Positions 22,497 to 35,928 of a stretch of DNA of 40,275 bases are shown here, piece after piece. Every line of letters starts with the position of its first letter. The first letter of the stretch is position 1. Made by a program: the position numbers and the translations under genes. This DNA comes from Pleurocapsa sp. CCALA 161 (lineage in GTDB: Bacteria > Cyanobacteriota > Cyanobacteriia > Cyanobacteriales > Xenococcaceae), in NCBI RefSeq assembly GCF_003003995.1, contig NZ_PVWF01000042.1:1-40275 (forward strand), read 5' to 3'. Below the pieces are notes generated by a model. The model saw only the letters and a program-made list of their open reading frames with translations. It had not been told where the DNA came from and searched no databases.

Positions 22497-22633
22497 CGAT
22501 CGCCTGTTAGGAAAATTATTAAGGCGATCCGAAGGCTACGCGATAGCGTAATCGCTATTAATCAAAACATCTGTTGCGATCACCTTAACATCGAGTCAAA
22601 CAGAAAAGCGATCGCACTTACTAAATGCGATCG
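22497..22633. repeat. Direct repeat block B, copy 1 (with 24-nt insertion)
   Basis: Outside 22529-22552 this block aligns without gaps to 24264-24376, with 108 of 113 bases identical by my count. Together the two copies flank the vapBC and DUF2283 gene pairs in direct orientation. Confidence 0.9.
22529..22552 (+). mobile_element. 24-nt small dispersed element inserted into a HIP1 site
   Basis: The sequence begins CCGAAGGC and ends GCGTAAT. It splits GCGAT from CGC, and the paralogous site at 24291-24298 is an intact GCGATCGC. It contains a hairpin TACGC-GATA-GCGTA. If AT is a target duplication, the element is 22 nt. It resembles the very small repeats described for cyanobacterial genomes. 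No transposase is involved in the sequence itself. Confidence 0.85.
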
Positions 22634-22732: not shown

Positions 22733-22978
22733 ATGGTACAGGCTCGCTTAACAGGTAAAGGACAAGTTACTATCCCCAAGGCAATTAGAGACTATCTACA
22801 CCTAGATACTGGAAGCAAAATAGATTTTGTCATTGATGAAAATGGAGAAGTCAAAGTTATCTCTTTAAATGTCGCTGTAGAAAGCTTGTCTGGTATTCTC
22901 CACCGTTCAGGAATGAAAGCAGCTTCTTTAGCAGACATGGAACAGGCAATCGCCCAGGGTGCTAGTGATTGGACTTGA
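22733..22978 (+). CDS. AbrB/SpoVT-type antitoxin (VapB-like)
   Basis: In this 81-aa protein, residues 3-47 form a swapped-hairpin AbrB domain: RLTGKGQVTIPKAIRDYLHL, GSKIDFVIDENGEVKV. Residues 50-81 form the helical toxin-neutralising tail (SLSGILHRSGMKAASLADME). It binds DNA as a dimer and is expected to repress its own operon, with the toxin as co-repressor. The ribosome-binding region AAGGAAAAATTCAA lies just before the ATG. Its 3' end overlaps the downstream PIN toxin gene, a typical translationally coupled pair. Confidence 0.92.
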   Translation: MVQARLTGKGQVTIPKAIRDYLHLDTGSKIDFVIDENGEVKVISLNVAVESLSGILHRSGMKAASLADMEQAIAQGASDWT

Positions 22979-23354
22979 TACTAATATTTTGGTGCGATAT
23001 CTAACCAAAGATGATCAGGCACAATGGAAACAAGCAGTAGAAATAATCAATAATGCTGAATCTTGTTTTATCTCTAACATCGTTTTGTGTGAGATGGTTT
23101 GGGTTTTGAGAGGAAAACCCTATCAATATCCTCAATCAGAAATTTTGAAAATCATAGAACTTTTACTGCAAAGCTCTAAATTGGAATTTGCAAATCGTAC
23201 TGTTATTTACCAAGCATTGAAACTTAACAAGTTAGGAAAAGCTGATTTTGCCGATTATCTCATTGGTGCAGTCAATCATTTTCACGAATGCAGCACAACA
23301 GTAACTTTCGATCAAAAGCTGAAAGATGATAAATGGTATCGAGTTTTAGATTAA
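22965..23354 (+). CDS. PIN-domain ribonuclease toxin (VapC-like)
   Basis: This 129-aa PIN toxin is expected to cut RNA, in known VapC proteins often tRNA or rRNA, when unbound from its antitoxin. The acidic metal-binding residues are visible: Asp in MIGLDTNILVRYL, Glu in VLCEMVWVL, Asp in KADFADYLIG and Asp in VTFDQKL. The GTG at 22965 fits the family N-terminus and overlaps the antitoxin stop by 14 nt. Another GTG at 22959 would add two residues. A fragment of a second copy lies 1.3 kb upstream at 21715-21759. Confidence 0.92.
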   Translation: MIGLDTNILVRYLTKDDQAQWKQAVEIINNAESCFISNIVLCEMVWVLRGKPYQYPQSEILKIIELLLQSSKLEFANRTVIYQALKLNKLGKADFADYLIGAVNHFHECSTTVTFDQKLKDDKWYRVLD

Positions 23355-23555: not shown

Positions 23556-23774
23556 TTATTTAGCTAATGCAATAGAATTAATTGGTAAAGCTTCTGCTTC
23601 CAGACGAGTTAAATCCACAACTTTACTAGCATGGTCTATATCAATACCAACTAAATTACCTTCACTATCAAAGTCAAGCACAATGCTAGGAGAAACTTCC
23701 TGAGAGTCGGTGCTAGGTTTTTCGCTCAGACTAATATAAAGCGAGTCTGTTTCGGGATAGTAATTAAATTTCAT
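23556..23774 (-). CDS. DUF2283 domain protein
   Basis: This 72-aa protein shows the DUF2283 pattern MKFNYYPETDSLYISLSEKP, then VVLDFDSEGNLVGIDIDHAS (here SIVLDFDSEGN). Members are small, often found in toxin-antitoxin-like pairs, and have no established activity. The start codon lies two nucleotides after the stop of the partner gene, so the two are cotranscribed. A decayed C-terminal copy is present at 21874-21906. The whole pair sits between two copies of repeat block A. A role as antitoxin is inference from gene pairing. Confidence 0.88.
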   Translation of the reverse strand: MKFNYYPETDSLYISLSEKPSTDSQEVSPSIVLDFDSEGNLVGIDIDHASKVVDLTRLEAEALPINSIALAK

Positions 23775-23776
23775 AG

Positions 23777-24058
23777 TTACTGGTTCTTAAAATTTCGGTC
23801 TAGAAAAGCATTATGAATTGTTTCCCCATCTTCTAGAGTAACAACTCTAAAATATTTATTTAGTTCGGCAATGTATATCCAGTGACGAATTCGTCCGTCG
23901 GGTTGTACTTCCTTTTTGGCAGGCTCTTGAATTGCTTTTTGACACCACTCTCGATTGATATAAGGTCTTTTTAATAGGACTTGTTCCTCAACAACGTGGT
24001 TGGATTTGCGCCGTAAAACGACGCATCCCCCACGTTCAAAATAACGAGTTGTTTTCAA
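23777..24058 (-). CDS. Partner of DUF2283 protein, candidate toxin, interrupted by a repeat in frame
   Basis: This 93-aa protein's recognisable body (RPYINREWCQKAIQEP, DGRIRHWIYIAELNKYFRVV, DGETIHNAFLDRNF) belongs to the small proteins that precede DUF2283 genes in cyanobacteria, sometimes assigned to DUF4258. The compact alpha-beta pattern resembles RelE/BrnT-like folds, but this is not demonstrated. Residues 9-24 (RGGCVVLRRKSNHVVE) correspond to a 40-nt nested palindrome plus 8 nt. Without them the N-terminus would read MKTTRYFEEQVLLKRPYI, as relatives do. The frame is kept, so the protein may still be made, possibly with altered activity. Confidence 0.75.
   Translation of the reverse strand: MKTTRYFERGGCVVLRRKSNHVVEEQVLLKRPYINREWCQKAIQEPAKKEVQPDGRIRHWIYIAELNKYFRVVTLEDGETIHNAFLDRNFKNQ
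23995..24034. repeat. 40-nt nested palindromic element inside the DUF2283 partner gene
   Basis: On the gene strand it begins CGTGGGGG and ends AACCACG. The stems are CGTGG/CCACG, GGAT/ATCC and GCGTCGT/ACGGCGC (one mismatch). Its length and ends match the element at 16930-16969, while the inner stems differ. Confidence 0.75.
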
Positions 24059-24263: not shown

Positions 24264-24376
24264 CGATCGCTTGTCAGGAAAATTATTAATGCGATCGCTA
24301 TTAATCAAAACATCTGTTGCGCTCACCTTAACATCGAGTCAAACAGAAAAGCGATCCCACTTACTAAATGCGATCG
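24264..24376. repeat. Direct repeat block B, copy 2 (uninterrupted HIP1 site)
   Basis: Second copy of the block at 22497-22633. At 24291-24298 it keeps an intact GCGATCGC exactly where copy 1 carries the 24-nt element. Confidence 0.9.
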
Positions 24377-34278: not shown

Positions 34279-35928
34279 ATGAAAATTATCCGTCTTTTAT
34301 TTCAGAAATCAGGAAAACTCTTTGTTCTAGGAGCGATCGCGAGTATTTTTACTGGCGTTAGTAGTGCAGGTTTGATTGCACTGATCAATTATATTTTACA
34401 AAACATAGACCAAATATCGACTGGAATAGTAGTAAGTTTTATTGGTTTGTGCTTGTTGCTAATGATCTCGTCAGCTATATCTTGGATGCTACTAACTCAA
34501 CTAGTTCAAGATATTATTTATAATCTTCGTTTGAATTTAACTCAAGGTATTTTAGCCTGTCCTTTAAGCGAACTAGAAACTTTAGGCGCACCAAAATTAT
34601 TAGCTGCTATTACGGAAGATGTTAATACTATTGCTGGTTCTTCCATTGCCATCTCGGGTATGGGAGTTAATATTTCCTTAGTTTTAGGATGTTTAGTTTA
34701 TTTATGTTGGCTATCTTTTCCAGTATTTATCTTATTTATAGCGATGATTATTTTGGGTATTTTTAGTTATCAATACATTGCTAATCAAGGTAGATCGGGA
34801 TTAAAAAATGCTAGAGCAGAACAAGACATTTTATTCCAACATTTTCAGACAGTCACTCAAGGTATTAAAGAATTAAAATTACACCGTCAAAGACGTAATA
34901 CTTTTTTCCAAGAAGACTTAAAAGCTACAGCAAAAAGTGTGCGCCACAATTGGATGCAGGGAATGATTGCTTTTGCGATCGCTGGTGGTTATGGATTGGG
35001 TTTATTTTTTATTCCTTTGGGTATTTTGTTGCTTGGTCTGACTAGAATTATGTCAATTCCTCATGATGTTTTGACTAGCTACACGTTGACTTTTTTATAT
35101 GCAATTACTCCTTTACGTGGAATTTTAAATACGCTACCAGAAATCAGTAAAACGAGTGTTTCACTAGAAAAAATTGAGTCTTTAGGACTATCTCTTGCCG
35201 AACAAATCACAGAACCTGATTTTCCTACTGGTTCTGATTTCAATGATAAGTGGACAAGTTTAAAATTAGTAGATATTAATCATACTTATCGGGGAGACAG
35301 TGAAGAACATCAGTTTACCTTAGATAATATTAATCTCAAGTTTCAACCAGGAGAAATTGTCTTTATCGTTGGTGGCAATGGTAGTGGTAAATCGACTTTA
35401 GTTAAATTAATTACAGGTTTATATACTCCCGATCGCGGTCAGATTTTGTTAAATAATATTCCTGTAAGAGATGATAATCGTGAATGGTATCGGCAACAGT
35501 TTTCAGTAGTGTTTTATGATTTCTATTTATTTGATCGTCTGTTGGGAATAGAATCAAACCGTGCCACAGAAATACAGAATTATCTAAACTTACTGGAAAT
35601 AGAACATAAAGTCACAGTTAAGGATGGTACTTTATCCACTACAAATTTATCTCAAGGACAGCGTAAAAGATTAGCTTTACTAACTGCTTATTTAGAAGAT
35701 CGTCCGATTTATGTCTTTGATGAATGGGCATCGGATCAAGATCCTGTATTTAAAGAAATATTCTACAAAAAACTATTACCCCAATTAAAAAGCCGAGGTA
35801 AAACTGTTATTGCTGTTAGTCATGATGATCGATATTTTGAAGAGTGCGATCCGAAGGGTAGGCGTAAGCCTAATCGCCTTGTGAAACTAGATTATGGTCG
35901 AATAATTGAAGATCGATATTTGAGTTAA
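34279..35928 (+). CDS. Cyclic-peptide-type ABC exporter (PvdE/SyrD family), fused TMD-NBD
   Basis: This 549-aa half-transporter has six hydrophobic segments in residues 10-290 (LFVLGAIASIFTGVSSAGLI and others) and a nucleotide-binding domain from about 325. Walker A is GGNGSGKST (365-373), the signature is LSQGQ (457-461), Walker B is YVFDEWASDQDP with Asp481 and Glu482, and the H-loop is His515 in AVSHDDRYF. The DEWASDQDP form is characteristic of the PvdE/SyrD group, which exports siderophore precursors and lipopeptides. Residues 525-532 (PKGRRKPN) come from a 24-nt repeat inserted in frame near the C-terminus. Without them it would read EECDRLVKLDYGRI. No peptide synthetase is in the window. 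Confidence 0.92.
   Translation: MKIIRLLFQKSGKLFVLGAIASIFTGVSSAGLIALINYILQNIDQISTGIVVSFIGLCLLLMISSAISWMLLTQLVQDIIYNLRLNLTQGILACPLSELETLGAPKLLAAITEDVNTIAGSSIAISGMGVNISLVLGCLVYLCWLSFPVFILFIAMIILGIFSYQYIANQGRSGLKNARAEQDILFQHFQTVTQGIKELKLHRQRRNTFFQEDLKATAKSVRHNWMQGMIAFAIAGGYGLGLFFIPLGILLLGLTRIMSIPHDVLTSYTLTFLYAITPLRGILNTLPEISKTSVSLEKIESLGLSLAEQITEPDFPTGSDFNDKWTSLKLVDINHTYRGDSEEHQFTLDNINLKFQPGEIVFIVGGNGSGKSTLVKLITGLYTPDRGQILLNNIPVRDDNREWYRQQFSVVFYDFYLFDRLLGIESNRATEIQNYLNLLEIEHKVTVKDGTLSTTNLSQGQRKRLALLTAYLEDRPIYVFDEWASDQDPVFKEIFYKKLLPQLKSRGKTVIAVSHDDRYFEECDPKGRRKPNRLVKLDYGRIIEDRYLS
35851..35874 (+). mobile_element. 24-nt small dispersed element in the ABC exporter gene, second family member
   Basis: The sequence begins CCGAAGGG and ends GCCTAAT, between GCGAT and CGCC, so removal restores a HIP1 octamer and the reading frame. 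Its hairpin TAGGC-GTAA-GCCTA matches the position of TACGC-GATA-GCGTA in the element at 22529-22552, with a compensated base-pair change. Confidence 0.85.

Follow-up and report, generated by a model that had tools for sequence, protein, structure and literature searches.

A 24-nucleotide stretch within a HIP1 site of Pleurocapsa as a very probable copy of a small dispersed repeat

Two repeat blocks lie in the window (the whole stretch of 40,275 bases analysed here), and one of them carries 24 nucleotides (nt) that its partner lacks, placed exactly inside a HIP1 sequence, the short palindrome GCGATCGC, that the partner keeps whole. Passages of Elhai 2015 (PMC4390886) describe HIP1 as greatly enriched in many cyanobacteria and as a sequence of unsettled role; the window holds 67 occurrences versus 0.22 expected in shuffles. 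The locus raises the question of whether the 24 nt are a mobile unit that uses HIP1 as its target and, if so, by what route such a small unit could enter. In our reading, the stretch very probably belongs to a non-autonomous small dispersed repeat whose copies enter HIP1 precisely, lengthening the site by 23 or 24 nt and deleting none of it. The data support its dispersal, its specificity for HIP1, insertion into HIP1 that was already there, paired and covarying hairpins, and repeat hits on one HIP1.

A filled and an empty HIP1 site in one window

Re-alignment of the two blocks (Table 1) gives 108 identical positions of 113, with five mismatches and a single gap of 24 nt that falls inside GCGATCGC, just as described in an earlier note made from this DNA by reading the letters, which had placed the gap between GCGAT and CGC. 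The filled junction reads GCGAT, CCGAAGGCTACGCGATAGCGTAAT, CGC, and the partner block has an intact GCGATCGC with no scar, confirming the pair of filled and empty sites that the note had recognized within a single window. This junction fits insertion between HIP1 nt 3 and 4, which the AT common to insert and target prevents us from telling apart from 4/5 or 5/6; all three breaks, and both placements of the insert given in Table 1, are equally valid. Judged from the letters at the junction, the mobile unit may be either 22 nt with a duplication of AT or 24 nt with none, and both fit. As for the features of a MITE, terminal inverted repeats are not evident in the core (CC...TA), and the AT is compatible with a duplication or with none.

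Table 1. Features of the window that bear on the insert, with positions counted from the first base
Feature	Position	Strand	Basis
Repeat block A, filled site	22497-22633	+	alignment
24-nt insert, core 22529-22550 plus AT	22529-22552 (equivalently 22527-22550)	+	alignment to block B
Left half of split HIP1, GCGAT	22524-22528	+	sequence
Right half of split HIP1, ATCGC, its AT common with the insert	22551-22555	+	sequence and alignment
Possible mini-hairpin 1, CC-GAA-GG	22529-22535	+	sequence; absent from the predicted fold of the 22529 copy
Hairpin 2, TACGC-GATA-GCGTA, GNNA tetraloop	22537-22550	+	predicted fold; family covariation of the S-S pair
Repeat block B, empty site	24264-24376	+	alignment
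Intact HIP1 of the empty site	24291-24298	+	sequence
ABC transporter ORF, 549 aa, PF00005 and PF00664, carrying the second copy in frame	34279-35928	+	
Second family copy, CCGAAGGGTAGGCGTAAGCCTA; HIP1 halves at 35846-35850 and 35873-35877	35851-35872	+	hairpin pattern

Beyond the window, two blocks of genome G002 that match the window block are empty, with GAGATCGC, and a block of genome G003 has a 24-nt stretch at the same place that resembles a decayed copy, an ambiguous case. At up to three mismatches, the 22-nt core finds only itself, both in the window and across the whole of its own genome (5.37 Mb searched, in 249 contigs).

A narrow family built of two hairpins

Relatives of the insert emerge once the pattern is relaxed to its hairpins. 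With three mismatches allowed, the hairpin pattern gave 8 matches in the own genome versus 6 for the reversed control, and we accepted as members at that step only the three with at most two mismatches: the copy at 22529, the second window copy, which the earlier note does not mention, and one on contig C60, all of them between GCGAT and ATCGC. A fourth match (contig C237, three mismatches) also has HIP1 flanks. A search with the left end (GCGATCCGAAGG, one mismatch) returned 22 matches, versus 8 in the control, comprising 13 full members, one member with a nested second element (L064) and 8 degraded or unrelated sequences. The pattern CCNNNGGNTANGCNNNGCNTA, which leaves both flanks and the loops free, yielded 90 matches, of which the own genome holds 19, in 13 of the 27 genomes that make up family f1, versus 1 for the reversed control, so that many copies are found at unrelated loci.

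These 90 matches and one copy from genome G021 make up the 91 copies, all from Pleurocapsa-like genomes, that could be read with their flanks. The flanks are a perfect GCGAT/ATCGC in 71 of them, with one mismatch in 13, two mismatches in four and more than two in three (L127, L143 and L149). The preference for HIP1 flanks that the earlier note had proposed is therefore borne out by a flank-free search: 88 of the 91 copies lie within two mismatches of ten, and the flanks are not random. Chance was also considered as the origin of the insert and of the family, and is ruled out by the searches, their controls and the block alignment.

The sequence family is narrow. A scan of the whole class found the Pleurocapsa core in 3 of 388 genomes, a sample that held only two genomes of the window's own genus, and one of these three matches (G256) has no HIP1 flanks. 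G005 belongs, and G004 probably belongs, to the genus of the window genome. Repeats of the form GTAGGGTACGC-nnn-GCGTACC (Methylobacter, Methylotuvimicrobium, Thiodictyon and others; L247-L326) are like the family in core letters and hairpin but differ in having no HIP1 flanks. A look-alike control set of 110 matches listed, of nearly the same core and mostly from methanotrophs and other proteobacteria, includes four that are HIP1-flanked, which are the G003 and G005 copies already in the family set; none of the other 106 listed comes within two flank mismatches.

Two minor observations concern the copies themselves. A second 24-nt element, CGACGCGAAGCTAGTCCTTTAGGG, is nested in several of them (L075, L064 and L014), and it too follows GCG. 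On contig G010:C7, seven of eight copies lie on the forward strand, too few for a claim of strand bias.

The copies fall into three main subtypes. Type A, GCGAT-CCGNAGG-C-TASGC-GNA-GCSTA-ATCGC, adds 23 nt, while type B, GCGAT-CCC-GAA-GGG-TASGC-GNA-GCSTA-ATCGC, and type C, GCGAT-GCC-TTC-GGC-TASGC-GNA-GCSTA-ATCGC, each add 24 nt. Pairing can be judged at two positions, the remaining stem letters being imposed by the search pattern and hence uninformative. In hairpin 2, S pairs with S in Watson-Crick fashion in 86 of the 88 HIP1-flanked copies that have 3-nt loops (shuffles average 43.7 and reach at most 61), and in hairpin 1 the extension pair is Watson-Crick in 30 of 33 copies of the 24-nt types (mean 16.2; 0 of 10,000 shuffles reach 30); these counts, like those for the loops, come from related copies and not from independent events. 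Of the 91 copies, 70 have GAA, GTA or GCA as loop 1. For loop 2, 78 of them show GNA, N taking all four bases, versus 4 of the 106 look-alikes listed, and in the two window copies it is GATA (22529) and GTAA (35851), i.e., GNNA. According to passages of PMC4686876, DNA mini-hairpins that have a GNA or GNNA loop and a minimum of two closing G-C pairs are extraordinarily stable; the family has this loop type on at least two G-C pairs.

Folded as DNA, types B and C are predicted to form a perfect three-way junction in which the HIP1 halves make up the base stem (type B, -7.6 kcal/mol, z -2.0; type C, -7.9 kcal/mol, z -1.6). For a type A example (z -0.7) and for the 22529 copy (z -1.2), the base stem and hairpin 2 are predicted and hairpin 1 is absent, and for the 35851 copy (z -2.7) all three stems are predicted, with a 4-nt loop in hairpin 1. 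The TACGC-GATA-GCGTA hairpin that the earlier note had drawn is thus part of the predicted fold of the 22529 copy, and its S-S pair covaries across the family.

Empty sites and copies in reading frames

Coding sites, where relatives can be aligned across the junction, allow the state before insertion to be read. The earlier note had suggested looking for intact HIP1 in related strains and had held that an insert carried by all relatives, together with signs of a precise deletion in the 24264 copy, would speak against its reading; some relatives lack the insert, and at all five f1 coding sites tested at least one empty relative has an intact HIP1 at the junction, with 20 intact sites in total. 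One of the five is the ABC transporter gene of the window, and the other four were tested by a fused query on fetched loci. The ABC copy lengthens the protein by eight residues, which separate an Asp from an Arg that is its direct neighbour in most relatives. All 13 readable orthologues or paralogues are without this copy: the three closest empty relatives (G033, G010 and G004) have GCGATCGC exactly at the insertion codons, one of the remaining relatives has GCGATCGT, and nine have no HIP1. Intact HIP1 is likewise found in five of six empty relatives at site L158 (where G003 has a longer insert), in three of three at L239, and in 8 of 13 at L148, where one more has HIP1 with one change and four have none. 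At L141 it is present in G002, the own genome has GCGGTCGC, and seven more distant relatives are without HIP1. Insertion into pre-existing HIP1 is thus well supported.

At two of these loci the history goes beyond a single gain. In the ABC gene of G005 (L098), the same HIP1 is split by an unrelated 24-nt sequence, TTGCGGAGCTATGCCGTTAGGCTT, which brings an in-frame TAG and folds no better than its shuffles (z 0.00). At L239, the own genome (contig C96) and G002 are filled with the same subtype, while G003 is empty with an intact HIP1, although G003 is 93.8% identical to the own locus over 1,754 positions and G002 only 69.4%; a near relative that is empty and a distant one that is filled imply clean loss or repeated gain in the family. 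Separately, the type C copy at L148 (own contig C104) adds an in-frame TAG to a conserved ORF of ~360 aa, of which intact relatives exist.

Once the site is made empty, 13 of 90 copies fall within ORFs of 150 aa or more, here unannotated stop-to-stop stretches, a rule that misses the ABC copy of the window, which is too near the gene end. The 24-nt form accounts for 10 of these 13 coding copies versus 27 of the 77 others (Fisher P 0.006), an excess inside genes that is probably due to the addition of eight codons. A type C copy on own contig C18 (L407) lies in frame in an ORF that we take to resemble an IS transposase.

The same plan in other lineages and how the unit may move

The architecture recurs with other sequences. 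A pattern of HIP1 halves and CC-NNN-GG has matches in 103 of the 388 class genomes; the reversed control is unfair to this pattern, which contains the HIP1 halves, and the structure test accordingly used only pattern-free parts, in 127 distinct sequences from the 139 rows listed outside f1. Among the matches listed, a hairpin of at least 4 bp adjoins the right HIP1 half in 42 of 127 (two kinds of shuffle average 2.7 and 4.7 and reach at most 10 and 13), and the extension pair is Watson-Crick in 72 of 127 (means of 32.9 and 45.1). About a third of the CC-NNN-GG matches listed are therefore structured, and the remainder may be chance matches. In the 42 structured matches listed, 27 have G..A or its complement T..C as loop 1 and 27 have it as loop 2, compared with one in eight by expectation; outside family f31 the figures are 9 of 20 for loop 1 and 13 of 20 for loop 2 among the structured matches listed. 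The sequences in these loop statistics are related, which makes the P-values too small.

Family f31 has the form GCGAT-TCC-nnn-GGA-AGC-TTGC-nnn-GCA-ATCGC, and of the 20 copies fetched, 18 fall within stop-to-stop ORFs of 120 aa or more, not necessarily all of them genes. An empty counterpart with intact HIP1 exists at four of six f31 sites tested. In the RNB gene it is found in two empty relatives, some other aligned relatives being without it, and in the SNF2 gene and in recJ it is found in one empty relative each, other aligned relatives being without it; in a TPR gene, GCGATCGC is kept in two sibling repeats where the third repeat has the insert. HIP1 is absent from the two aligned empty relatives at the PlsC site and from five aligned, distant empty relatives at the alpha/beta hydrolase site. 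The recJ element of G131 is in the opposite orientation to those of G119 and G085, and recJ of G108, the nearest to that of G131 (79.7%), is empty, which makes two or more separate hits on one recJ HIP1 most likely.

How such units travel can be proposed from their shape. The two mini-hairpins would stand side by side on a folded strand, where the self-complementary HIP1 halves would close the three-way junction, and a trans-acting enzyme would cut and join at HIP1; this could be a HUH-type single-stranded DNA (ssDNA) transposase or another recombinase that recognizes the folded strand. That the element moves as folded ssDNA through such an enzyme is a proposal to which we give a little less than even weight. 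Y1 transposases, the first candidates for such an enzyme, show neither a spatial link to the copies in the loci read nor a numerical one across 27 genomes (figures are given below with the REP reading). Slightly more tentatively, HIP1 might be a common landing pad in cyanobacteria for a wide class of 23-24-nt units that move as folded ssDNA and are kept in architecture (the HIP1-closed three-way junction) and not in sequence, and these units might be the source of some in-frame differences of eight residues among cyanobacterial proteins. The entry of TTGCGGAGCTATGCCGTTAGGCTT into HIP1 without a notable fold implies that the three-way plan is not required for entry.

The main rival moves the specificity from the element to the cut: HIP1 would be opened by a nuclease or recombinase that recognizes it, a hairpin oligonucleotide would be captured, and the AT would be the duplicate left by a 2-nt stagger. 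The same G005 sequence, unrelated and without notable fold, speaks for this rival; the insertion is symmetric around the HIP1 dyad, within the ambiguity of the AT, and directed cutting at HIP1 is suggested for SDR5 in passages of Elhai 2015 (PMC4390886). Capture alone, however, leaves the constant length of 23-24 nt and the conserved plan of two hairpins unexplained, and we consider it unlikely, at about one chance in a few. A REP origin, in which the element would be a REP sequence moved by a TnpA-REP tyrosine transposase, appears improbable. Size, hairpins and in-frame insertions are REP-like (parts of PMC6006769), the core variant CCGTAGGGTA is similar to GTAG repeats of methanotrophs, and within the genus the number of Y1 genes shows a weak positive trend with copy number (rho 0.55, P 0.053). 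Yet the hairpin is not preceded by a constant GT[AG]G foot: C, G or A precedes the stem of hairpin 2, which mostly starts with TAC or TAG, and GTAG occurs in the family only where a linker G joins TAGGC, within paired sequence. Nor do family copies neighbour Y1 genes in the roughly 42 distinct loci read (out of 316 Y1 matches, and including four of the own genome's six), made up of 30 fetched loci and 20 stretches, of which 8 repeat those loci; across 27 genomes, Y1 number and copy number are not correlated (rho -0.02). To our knowledge, a HIP1 target is no feature of REP sequences.

Two further readings were weighed. That the 24264 block and the other empty sites were formerly filled and then cleanly lost the element is favoured by the C96 locus and by the decayed-copy-like stretch in the G003 block. 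As to the earlier note's concern that the 24264 block might bear signs of precise deletion, its HIP1 is intact and scarless, but a precise deletion would yield the same product. Empty HIP1 sites across several lineages and five genes nevertheless make deletion unlikely as a general rule, the two G002 blocks are empty, and the opposite orientations at one recJ HIP1 indicate separate insertions; we regard precise deletion as quite improbable. Least probable of all, and hardly credible, is that GCGAT and ATCGC are merely parts of a longer repeat of 31-32 nt with no target preference. Conservation in the flanks comes close to that in the core, and the HIP1 halves pair with each other in the predicted fold, but HIP1 stands at the same codons in empty relatives and in the two sibling TPR repeats, and the empty sites largely refute this reading. 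It possibly survives as a statement about mechanism only, since a 32-nt unit replacing HIP1 would yield an identical product.

Insertion of a small repeat into HIP1 is itself a known phenomenon. Elhai 2015, in the passages concerned, cites Elhai 2008 for SDR5 inserting precisely between HIP1 nt 3 and 4 (PMC4390886). SDR5 is likewise a small repeat module in HIP1 at nt 3/4, which fits the present site, and the two are likened by insertion site and not by sequence. The element belongs to this known kind of SDR5-type, HIP1-targeted repeat, and HIP1 as a target of small repeats is not new; in literature searches with limited full-text coverage, Elhai 2015 (PMC4390886) was the only prior link of this sort. 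What is added here are sites seen before and after insertion, the three-way-junction fold, the GNA loops, and the same plan with different sequences in other lineages. Neither the three-way-junction plan nor the GNA loops nor the recurrence with other sequences was met in what these literature searches listed or in the passages concerned, though other papers may describe them. REP/REPIN sequences with their RAYT (TnpA-REP), as presented in parts of PMC6006769, are similarly short, hairpin-forming, dispersed and at times in frame in genes; the present element differs in its lack of a constant GTAG foot and of Y1 proximity and in its fixed HIP1 target. Subterminal hairpins and a short fixed target are found in IS200/IS605-type elements and derivatives as well (parts of PMC6006769), whereas the present units are 23-24 nt long and geneless, and no longer element sharing these ends was met, in what was not a systematic search. 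A tiny unit with a fixed target, and a fold that recurs despite different sequences, offers a direct handle on HIP1; with its pairs of empty and filled sites, its GNA loops and its repeat hits on one HIP1, it opens the rule for the target and the rule for ssDNA to testing. A HIP1 within a reading frame is also one route by which proteins acquire eight residues.

The intergenic tract around the window blocks deserves a description of its own. Viewed at both blocks, at L394 (~4000 and 4850) and at L393 (3981-3820), it resembles a mosaic of short HIP1-bounded tiles, some of which recur in G002 and G003 in a different order, as if reshuffled at HIP1. The genes between the two window blocks, at 22733-23354 and 23556-24058, are a MazE-like/PIN pair and a DUF2283 gene, the latter partnered by a small ORF that has no Pfam match, and a 62-nt piece of the DUF2283 gene is found again in the G003 tract.
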